A stretch of DNA of 64,000 nucleotides from Leucobacter exalbidus. GTDB taxonomy: Bacteria; Actinomycetota; Actinomycetes; Actinomycetales; Microbacteriaceae. The translations under genes and the position numbers were made by a program. The notes under the pieces were generated by a model. The model made no database searches, was not told where the DNA came from, and saw only the letters and a list, made by a program, of their open reading frames with translations. The stretch spans positions 2,604,001-2,668,000 of the forward strand of contig NZ_JAFIDA010000001.1 in assembly GCF_017834145.1 (NCBI RefSeq). The letters are read 5' to 3'. This document shows, piece by piece, positions 181 through 47,447 of this stretch. The stretch's first letter is position 1. Each line of letters starts with the position of its first letter.

Positions 181-253
181 GCCTTGGTAGCTCAGTGGAT
201 AGAGCACTTCTCTCCTAAAGAAGGTGTCGCGGGTTCGATTCCCGCCCAGGGCA
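181..253 (+). tRNA. tRNA-Arg (anticodon CCT)
   Basis: Complete cloverleaf. The acceptor strand GCCTTGG (181-187) pairs with CCAGGGC (246-252) using one G-U pair, and 253 is the discriminator base. The anticodon stem CTTCT/AGAAG closes the loop CTCCTAA, giving anticodon CCT, which reads AGG. The T arm carries GGTTCGATTCC. No CCA is encoded. Part of the anticodon arm (216-228) is repeated downstream at 322-334. Confidence 0.97.
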
Positions 254-356
254 CAAATTAAAGAATCATGAAATACCAGGTCATGGCCTAAATCGGGCTC
301 TCGGCTGAAGCTTTCGCTTTTTAATGAAGGTGTCAGCGTGGGGCAAACGTGGGGCA
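216..356 (+). repeat. tRNA-Arg-linked module: 13-nt core duplication plus paired heptamers
   Basis: The tRNA segment TAAAGAAGGTGTC (216-228) recurs as TAATGAAGGTGTC at 322-334 with one mismatch, 106 bp away. Four bases later come two direct heptamers TGGGGCA at 339-345 and 350-356, spaced 11 bp. Between the copies lie the 3' half of the tRNA and a small AAGC-TTTC-GCTT hairpin with a T-run. The same arrangement follows tRNA-Lys at 46162-46300. Seen directly: the repeats and spacing. Inferred: tyrosine-integrase attachment core with arm-type sites, the relic of an integrated element. No integrase gene is present nearby. Confidence 0.6.
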
Positions 357-772
357 GAAGCCCTGCAAACACCGTTGGGCGTCGACGACGCTTGCGGGAA
401 GAGCTATGTGCTTTCGCGGTGCCGCGCAGAGATCTTTGGATGCTGTGGTGGCCTCGGTGTTGGCTTCGGGTAGCCGGTGCGCGTACTTTCTTATCATTGC
501 GGTTGAAGCGTGGCTAGAAGGTTTGTTAGTTTTGTGGGCGGTCAGTCGTCAACGAACTTCTTGGCCACACGGGCCATGACTGATGGGGTGGCTCTGCTTT
601 GAGCCCTCAACGTGGGACATGTTCGCTAGGGTGCACCCTTCAAATGTGCATCAGCAGCCAGTCTGGGCGGCTGTTTGGACCTTTGGGCGTTTAGTTGCTG
701 AGCTGTCTGGGGGCCTCAGCGCATTACCGCACGTATTTCCGCGGATTCTCGCGGCAGAACGCCCCATCGAAG
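357..772. other. No gene seen
   Basis: About 415 bp between the tRNA-Arg module and the HNH promoter. Both strands have only short open frames without a ribosome site, family motif or typical high-GC codon pattern. Its base composition is less GC-rich than the neighbouring genes, which would fit remnant DNA of a lost element, but nothing in it can be identified. Confidence 0.5.
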
Positions 773-46127: not shown

Positions 46128-46202
46128 GCCCCTATAGCTCAGCGGTAGAGCTTCGGACTTTTAATCCGCAGGTCGTAGGTTCGATCCCTACTGGGGGCAC
46201 CA
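46128..46202 (+). tRNA. tRNA-Lys (anticodon TTT)
   Basis: Acceptor GCCCCTA (46128-46134) pairs with TGGGGGC (46192-46198), discriminator A and an encoded CCA (46200-46202). The anticodon loop is CTTTTAA, anticodon TTT. T arm GGTTCGATCCC. The segment TAATCCGCAGGTC (46162-46174) from the anticodon arm recurs exactly at 46267-46279. Confidence 0.97.
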
Positions 46203-46300
46203 AAGTAACACAATAATACGCCTGGTCAGAAACTATTTCTGACTGGGCGTTTTTTTGTTGTCGTAATAATCCGCAGGTCACGTGGGGCAAATCTGGGGCA
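46162..46300 (+). repeat. tRNA-Lys-linked module: exact 13-nt core duplication plus paired heptamers
   Basis: TAATCCGCAGGTC of tRNA-Lys (46162-46174) is repeated exactly at 46267-46279, 105 bp away. Three bases later are direct heptamers TGGGGCA at 46283-46289 and 46294-46300, 11 bp apart, the same heptamer and spacing as behind tRNA-Arg at 339-356. A likely integrase attachment relic. The IS5-family element has inserted about 130 bp further on. No integrase or phage gene remains. Confidence 0.62.
46218..46257 (+). terminator. Rho-independent terminator of tRNA-Lys
   Basis: A 15-bp stem ACGCCTGGTCAGAAA (46218-46232) with TTTCTGACTGGGCGT (46236-46250), followed by a T7 run. It lies between tRNA-Lys and the duplicated core. 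Confidence 0.88.
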
Positions 46301-46423
46301 GCGACGTCGCCCTAGGCGAGCGGCCTCCGTGTTAAACCTCACCTTTTATGCCTGGTGGAGCGTACCGCGGTACTGAGTATTTAGTCGATGCGGTAGGACT
46401 CAAAGTTTCCAGTGACTTGGCGC

Positions 46424-47321
46424 CTAGGGCATGTCTCGTAAATGTTGTGTCCAGGCGATGACCGCGTGAAGTAACACTGCTGCCCGGTACGTCAACGACA
46501 GTTTGTCGTACCGGGTTGCGATGCCTCGCCACTGTTTCACGTGGCAGAACCGTCGCTCGATCACGTTACGTCCTCGATAGTTCTCGGCGTCGAGTTTGGG
46601 TGGGCGACCGCCCTGACTTCCGCGGCGTTTGCGATGCCCGATCTGGTCTCTCGGTTCAGGGATGACCGCCTCAATGCTGCGCTCGCGTAGATGGGCGCGA
46701 ATTGCGCGAGACGAGTATGCCTTGTCGCCGCGGACCGCGTCCGGGCGAGTGCGCGGCCTGCCAGGCCCGGTTCGTTCCACACGCAGAATCTCAAGCAGCG
46801 GCAATAACATCGGCGAATCGCCGTCTTGCCCGGCCGTGCAGACAGTCACCAGCGGCAACCCGTTGCCGTCTACGAGCTGATGAATTTTAGTCGAGAGGCC
46901 GCCGCGAGAACGACCCACCGCATGATCAAGCGGCTCGGTCAGCAGATTCTTGTAATTCGATGTATCCCTTTTTTAGGCGCGTCACGTTCGTTGCGTGCTG
47001 ATGCGCGCGAGCGATCGTGGAGTCCACCGAAATCGACCAATCAACCATTCCGGCAGCATCTGCCTCCGCCATCAATTGGCCAAGGAGGGCATCCCAGGTG
47101 CCGTCTGCGGCCATGCGGCGATGCCACCGCCACACTGTCTGCCAAGGTCCGAACGCGGCAGGAAGATCACGCCAAGCAATGCCGCACCGGTAGCGATAAA
47201 TGATGCCCTCGACCATGGTGCGGGCATCGGCATAGGGGCGCCCTTGTCGACCAGTCGGGCCAGGAAGCGATCCCGAAATCAGGTTCCACTGGTCATCGTT
47301 GAGGAGCTGGAATCTTGACAC
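46424..47321 (-). pseudogene. IS5-family DDE transposase, two frames (frameshifted)
   Basis: The upstream frame (47321-46926, 131 aa) begins MSRFQLLNDDQWNLI and holds the first catalytic Asp in SVDSTIARAHQHA, ending ELQESADRAA. The downstream frame (46918-46424, 164 aa) holds VGRSRGGLSTKIHQLVDG, the second Asp in RGDKAYSSRAI and the Glu in RNVIERRFCHVKQWRG. Joining needs a +1 shift; reading through at GAC-C-GAG near 46944 gives ESAD-EPLDHAVGRSRGG, like intact relatives, which suggests one inserted base. A programmed shift at A6G3 (46966-46974) is the alternative, but the frame reached from there contains no better match. Confidence 0.75.
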
Positions 47322-47367
47322 GCATCAACGATCCCAGACTCCACCCCAAATCTTTACGAGACACGCC
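46428..47367 (-). mobile_element. IS5-family insertion sequence
   Basis: About 940 bp. Terminal inverted repeats: the left end GGCATGTCTCGTAAA (from 46428) and the complement of the right end GGCGTGTCTCGTAAA (ending 47367) match with one difference. CTAG flanks both ends (46424-46427 and 47368-47371), a 4-bp target duplication typical of IS5-type elements. The transposase is on the minus strand in two frames. The stop codon of the distal frame (TAG, 46424-46426) is supplied by the flanking CTAG, not by the element. It lies just downstream of the tRNA-Lys repeat module. Confidence 0.85.
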
Positions 47368-47447
47368 CTAGTACTCGGTGATGGTTATTGAGCGGGCTCA
47401 ATAATCGAGTAAGGATAAAGCCGCATCCTGTGCTCGATGGAAAAGTG

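Follow-up and report, generated by a model that had tools for sequence, protein, structure and literature searches.

A tRNA-Lys gene of Leucobacter exalbidus is followed by a second copy of part of its own sequence and then by two TGGGGCA heptamers, and a similar arrangement stands behind a tRNA-Arg gene in the same 64,000-nucleotide stretch of DNA (the window). What left these sequences behind, and does the repeated piece of tRNA have a role of its own? The question bears on integration more generally since, to our knowledge, little is understood of how tyrosine integrases come to use a different tRNA. A preliminary description, made from the window alone, had proposed an undescribed element family whose integrase moves between tRNA genes. 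We compared the locus with related genomes, phage contigs and published integration systems.

Architecture of the tRNA-Lys locus

The reported layout, an exact 13-mer repeat at 105 bp followed by TGGGGCA-N4-TGGGGCA, is correct base for base (Table 1). The repeated word, TAATCCGCAGGTC, has no third copy in the 64 kb even with one mismatch allowed, and two copies appeared in none of 100 shuffles. Because the anticodon occupies positions 46160-46162, the 13-mer begins at its third base; it ends at tRNA nucleotide 47. The hairpin separating the two copies is strong (DNA fold z -4.9). This fold result is for the Lys locus, so that a terminator common to both modules, as had been described, is confirmed in part. 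By eye, hairpins of this kind often include CTGRTCAG or a near form (window positions 46222-46229; L293, L310, L294, L363 and L364) at a similar distance from the tRNA, and this motif may be an extra protein site.

No integrase gene is left at the Lys site, where integrase searches gave no significant match and only the doubtful trace listed in Table 1. In the whole genome, the integrase family alignment found nothing at E<=1e-50, a search by the integrase of a related phage contig (L070) returned five weak matches, and no displaced tRNA-Lys 3' half is left. What the window contains is a scar, not an element. An IS4/5-type element, about 126 bp past the heptamers, is a later insertion.

Table 1. 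Features of the tRNA-Lys locus and of the tRNA-Arg(CCT) scar in the window.
Feature	Position	Strand	Basis or remark
tRNA-Lys(TTT), target gene	46128..46202	+	ARAGORN
Presumed element-derived part of tRNA-Lys	anticodon loop (46158-46164) onward	+	crossover position read from relatives
Core within tRNA-Lys, third anticodon base to variable loop	46162..46174	+	
Hairpin with T run, resembling an intrinsic terminator, between core and its copy	46217..46250	+	
Second core copy (half core), 3 bp ahead of first heptamer	46267..46279	+	
TGGGGCA heptamer 1, presumed P' arm-type integrase site	46283..46289	+	same order in L070, G433, G416, G398
TGGGGCA heptamer 2, presumed P' arm-type integrase site	46294..46300	+	
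Possible but doubtful integrase C-terminus trace (VRF...CPRFAPR reading)	46301..46343	-	three-frame reading; position only
IS4/5-type insertion sequence, CTAG-flanked	46427..47368	-	PF01609 and DUF4096; ends by eye
tRNA-Arg(CCT), target of sister scar	181..254	+	ARAGORN
Second core copy of Arg(CCT) scar, 12/13 bases, spacing 106	322..334	+	
Double heptamer of Arg(CCT) scar	339..356	+	
Broken integrase C-terminal remnant behind Arg(CCT) scar	381..512	-	34% over 44 aa to L070 integrase

Sister modules in the same genome

Exact matches to the double heptamer number two in the window (Table 1) and three in the 3.18-Mb genome, compared with none for a reversed control. With up to two mismatches the count rises to 15 places against 13 for the control, so just the three exact places stand out. 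All three lie behind a tRNA gene with a core copy, namely tRNA-Lys, tRNA-Arg(CCT) and tRNA-Arg(CCG). The third module, outside the window (G000:C1:1006148-1006165), has an exact copy of GTACCGTAGGTC at a spacing of 129; behind it, a short tail, LPSNVIRFPGLAS, is similar to those of intact integrases. The integrase remnant of the Arg(CCT) scar was matched at E 6e-4 in a search of six sequences. A shared spacing between core and copy (106 versus 105) had been noted, and this holds for the Arg(CCT) and Lys modules; it does not hold over all modules, in which the spacing varies from 104 to 163.

Related modules belong to integrated elements, one of them a tailed phage

On the phage contig L070 the P heptamers come first and the 3' half of tRNA-Lys second; a hairpin, the core copy and the other heptamer pair follow, up to the 3' end of a tyrosine integrase gene. 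Its integrase matches PF00589 (E 1.8e-19) and, below threshold, a SAM-like domain, with no match to models of arm-binding domains. Core copy, heptamers and an open integrase gene likewise follow tRNA genes in G433 (Arg-CCG), G416 and L369 (both Ala-CGC) and G398 (Val-CAC), and G403 carries the same module. A tyrosine integrase gene adjoins attP in L070, G433, G416, L369, G398 and G003 (with Pfam assignments for L070 and G398 only). Integrases of this kind were found at E<=1e-30 in 8 of 398 family genomes, at E<=1e-50 in 5 of 54 Leucobacter genomes (six places), and at 12 loci on viral contigs, L070 among them; the single L070 protein as query recovered L070 itself and one remote contig. The idea of one integrase family that changes its target while the heptamers stay constant is borne out for Lys, Arg-CCG, Arg-CCT, Ala and Val, and the large insertions that had been suggested as a check in relatives do occur at these or similar tRNA genes.

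Heptamer pairs flank the core on both sides in L070 (216 and 501), G398 (1475952 and 1516396), G003 and the L369/L071 contig, as arm-type integrase sites do. This placement strongly suggests the arm-site role already proposed for them. No P-side pair was seen in G433, whose contig ends there, or in the window.

The element in G398 extends 40.8 kb from the tRNA-Val core at 1516524 to a displaced tRNA 3' half at 1475771, with a heptamer pair at either end, the far pair having one mismatch. A search for phage genes with ten of its proteins, eight of which had matches, identified terminase (phrog_9), tape measure (phrog_9228) and minor tail (phrog_1885) genes, and this element is a tailed phage. 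Both ends were also found on the L369/L071 contig, 37.9 kb apart, giving 38 and 41 kb for the two in-clade elements measured. G003, at tRNA-Met and outside the clade of core-copy integrases defined below, has both ends and a displaced 3' half at 40.3 kb. The G433 element has RecE/RecT-like matches. Wherever both ends were found, the far end carries a displaced tRNA 3' half, 37.9-40.8 kb off. The proposal that the two 13-mers bound the element therefore fails, the second 13-mer lying inside attP.

A second copy in G416 separates module and host. Part of the same element is present there at a place without a tRNA gene. Its sequence starts within the anticodon loop, at TTCGCAATGAGAAGG..., directly after host DNA, and runs through the tRNA 3' half, the hairpin, the core copy and the heptamers into the integrase gene, most of which is included. 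Because this copy brings the complete module, the module is element DNA. An anticodon-loop attachment had been predicted, and junctions in the relatives place the crossover within that loop. A junction on L356, 27 kb onward, reads ...GATAGCGTTCG and then other DNA; if this is the other end of the element, the two ends have only TTCG in common, within the 5' part of the loop, and these four bases would mark the crossover. The non-tRNA copy lacks the first 43 integrase residues and continues into a repeated segment of ~1.4 kb; both G416 elements are broken or rearranged. By eye, the non-tRNA site (L354 6738; L356 7260-7430) lies upstream of an amidohydrolase-like gene. At a third junction (G416:C1:791545 onward; L357 7546-7966) a displaced Ala 3' half comes before a core copy and heptamers that have both decayed. 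We read it as an older scar; scars may build up in layers where one tRNA is used repeatedly.

The second core fits the current target and marks one clade of the sampled integrases

We compared the 26 bases ahead of the heptamers in ten module rows with 28 tRNA types (73 windows). The tRNA of the module itself scored highest alone in six rows (L070 Lys, our own Arg-CCG and Arg-CCT, G433 Arg-CCG and two near-identical Ala rows). It was not the single best in the other four, being tied with Met in two Lys rows and one point behind a single other type in G403 and G398. Nine copies paired with their own tRNAs reached a score of 106 against a permuted mean of 66, a value attained by 5 of 100,000 permutations (identical labels allow ties), and the true pairing over the five targets was the best of 120.

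A chance repeat was rejected as an explanation: 669 mismatched pairings gave a longest shared word of 11, once, compared with 15, 13, 12 and 11 in four modules. When 223 distinct heptamer stretches were screened, repeats of at least 11 bp ending 2-4 bp before the heptamers occurred solely in L070, L003, L001 and L229, the last being an L. chromiireducens record. L002 scored 9 in this screen (9 exact bases, or 12/13 with one mismatch), and nine other stretches scored 9 or 10; a 10-bp repeat lies 2 bp ahead of the heptamer pair in L060/L067. In a separate chance test, 3 of 19,875 comparisons scored 10 or 11, and these may be real tRNA sequence.

On the integrase tree, the 5 of 22 rows that bear the copy form a single clade with 100/100 support, and the copy label requires one change, compared with 4.7 when shuffled. 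Within the clade the match is 10-12 of 12 bases, directly ahead of the heptamers (2-4 bp). Of the 17 remaining rows, 11 were checked for a copy of the target tRNA half close to the integrase, the other six being left out for a missing sequence or tRNA half (L373, L248, L249, L376, L378) or because only a neighbouring tRNA was available (L252). The best match was 8-9 of 12 in ten of these 11; L365 had 10 of 12, 314 bp away and without heptamers. G003 has the same heptamers and no core copy (own tRNA rank 26 of 28), so the copy is not required by every integrase of the wider family. Among ten control phages, tRNA half and heptamers were both present in MinS1, Catfish and TZGordon only; with the same or similar heptamers, these reached 8-9 of 12. 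Catfish, TZGordon and TinaLin were compared by their whole tRNA-Lys, not by a short core.

The unusual feature is the second core, which appears confined to one clade among the sampled integrases and fitted to the current target tRNA. It may be an accessory core-type half-site for the integrase. Alternatively, it might be a passive relic of the capture of the tRNA 3' half, in which imprecise excision joined host DNA to the old core beside P', and have no present function. The copy does comprise the right half of the core only, and it persists in scars that lack a working integrase, both of which such an origin would explain. A relic, however, would be expected to match old targets or to drift, whereas in one clade with open integrase genes, four targets and identities to L070 down to 47% the copy fits the present target each time. 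We consider a relic rather unlikely, and a functional second core somewhat more likely than a relic.

Comparison with known integration systems

The layout matches that of actinophage integration cassettes. In mycobacteriophages of Cluster J, according to the accessible parts of two reports, attP lies beyond the int 3' end and has a 44-bp core whose left end is in the anticodon loop, ~100 bp between core and int, and pairs of arm-type sites on either side; in Cluster K1 a putative stem-loop terminator lies between the core and the P3 site (PMC3706429, PMC3203893). With this known layout, and with a tailed phage in G398, the notion of an undescribed element family finds no support. Unlike in Clusters J and K, TGGGGCA takes the place of the arm motifs, and a second, target-matched half core before the P' pair is not mentioned in those parts of the reports. 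We recognized no description of a second core beside P' arm sites in the literature covered, which is partial and thus weak evidence of novelty; as far as searched, the target-matched second half core is new.

The phages of tRNA-dependent lysogeny, as the accessible portion of PMC10865867 presents them, resemble the present elements in using tRNA targets, several per integrase family, in the position of the crossover, and in secondary sites that share the left part of the core only. Their core is ~8-17 bp, the tRNA gene is broken on integration, and the phage brings a whole tRNA gene. Here, in contrast, tRNA-Lys is whole and the relatives supply a 3' half only, and the defining features of that mode were not found. 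The heptamers of our modules are nonetheless held in common with TinaLin and its relatives. The Gordonia phages TinaLin (L069), TZGordon (L411) and Catfish (L403), which have the same or similar heptamers with a whole tRNA-Lys shortly beyond, are candidates for tRNA-dependent lysogeny and are not named in Table 2 of that paper, in the form accessible.

It is conceivable that the core copy is the old short core of such an attP, to which a tRNA 3' half was added later, given that TinaLin and TZGordon combine the same heptamers with a short anticodon-loop-like stretch and a whole phage tRNA-Lys. The TinaLin stretch, however, lies by eye ~75 bp from the heptamers rather than 2-4 bp, and its integrase is distant from the copy clade in the tree, which makes this origin improbable.

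In the sections available, the Islander survey (PMC4383910) includes a class of islands with anticodon-centred crossover and a displaced 3' fragment, as in our relatives; the window scar differs in having neither integrase nor displaced fragment. The filters described there ask for an integrase ORF and a length of 2 kb or more; the window site would presumably be rejected. An att sequence of Group B Streptococcus prophages, TTATAGTTGGGGCGAATTTGGGGCATAA, is similar to the heptamers in having two TGGGGC-like words four bases apart, but it is the att sequence itself, beside an HU-family gene and not a tRNA gene, in what is accessible of PMC11357604. The available text of PMC3094311 has the heptamer in terminators only.

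The module is very probably neither a pair of junctions nor a host site

The two core copies could also be the attachment junctions at either end of an element that has shrunk to 105 bp, since they are exact, at a tRNA gene and in direct orientation. We regard this as very improbable: heptamers, not the rest of the tRNA, follow the second copy, the displaced tRNA 3' half stands at the far junction in G003, G398 and the L369/L071 contig, both copies move together inside the element in G416, and the attP of L070 contains both.

A last alternative, a conserved host regulatory or tRNA-processing site, would account for the similar position behind tRNA genes at three loci of one genome, but can be dismissed almost entirely, because heptamers and copy occur in phage contigs, are missing at most fetched related loci of the same tRNAs, and lie beyond the hairpin and so probably outside the tRNA transcript. 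The heptamers are missing at 26 of 28 scorable Leucobacter tRNA-Lys loci (30 were fetched from a search of 54 genomes), a count that speaks against the conserved host site posed as a check on the preliminary description, and at 27 of 30 Arg-CCG and 29 of 30 Arg-CCT loci. In L268-L270, LysE, tRNA-Lys and a 233-aa protein keep their order without heptamers.

Nor are the heptamers private to one family. Stretches with the pattern GTGGGGCAAANNTGGGGCA number 113 in viral sequences and at least 118 in genomes, from many phyla; a same-strand tRNA gene lies within ~420 bp upstream in 15 of these, our own included, and others have a downstream tRNA. A loosened search of the 398 family genomes found nine places in seven genomes, G122, G250, G232, G064 and G089 among the matches, compared with five control places.

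Several further occurrences were seen. On Bacteroidales-type contigs (L149, L168, L178, L196, L222, L234) a double heptamer lies ~75-77 bp from various tRNA genes, in the orientation opposite to the Lys case. In Pseudomonas marginalis (L191 5921-6147) two double heptamers ~200 bp apart on one strand are perhaps the P and P' arms of one attP. A Lys scar in G408 (L264 1654 onward) has mutated heptamers (TGGGGCATACGTGGGGCT), then by eye a cold-shock-like reading frame, with no integrase match at this scar.

A probable fossil attL and a putative three-site attP

The Lys site is very probably a fossil attL, in which host tRNA adjoins the P' side of attP, left by a temperate phage whose prophage has since been lost. 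By analogy with the relatives, the phage would have joined the chromosome inside the anticodon loop; since it supplies its own tRNA 3' half, the tRNA stays whole. Behind this half would have come the hairpin, the second short core copy, two direct TGGGGCA sites and the 3' end of the integrase gene, as in the relatives, with a further heptamer pair on the P side and the original tRNA 3' half moved to the far end. The integrase presumably performs the joining, its N-terminal domain binding the heptamers as arm-type sites. The second core may serve as a half-site of the core type: if the integrase domain that reads the target also binds here, a copy that changes along with the target would be expected. 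The three scars of this genome would date from deletions that removed three prophages but spared the end restoring the tRNA; the insertion sequence would have reached the Lys scar afterwards.

We tentatively propose, with slightly less than even confidence, that attP in this clade has three kinds of site: arm sites, a crossover core, and a target-matched half-site beside the P' arms. This half-site might hold an integrase protomer through both of its DNA-binding domains and so help to assemble or direct the complex. Each change of target would then force a rewrite of the half-site, because one integrase domain must read both tRNA and half-site, and attP would keep a record of integrase specificity.

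The clade combines constant presumed arm sites with four targets at which the integrase gene is still open, or five if the Arg-CCT fossil is counted, and a second core that changes in step. It would thus let core recognition be read from natural sequences, and it adds to attP a part whose role can be tested. In addition, scars without an integrase but with recognizable ends can accumulate behind tRNA genes: this genome has three, and G416 has an older, decayed one beside the end of a newer element.
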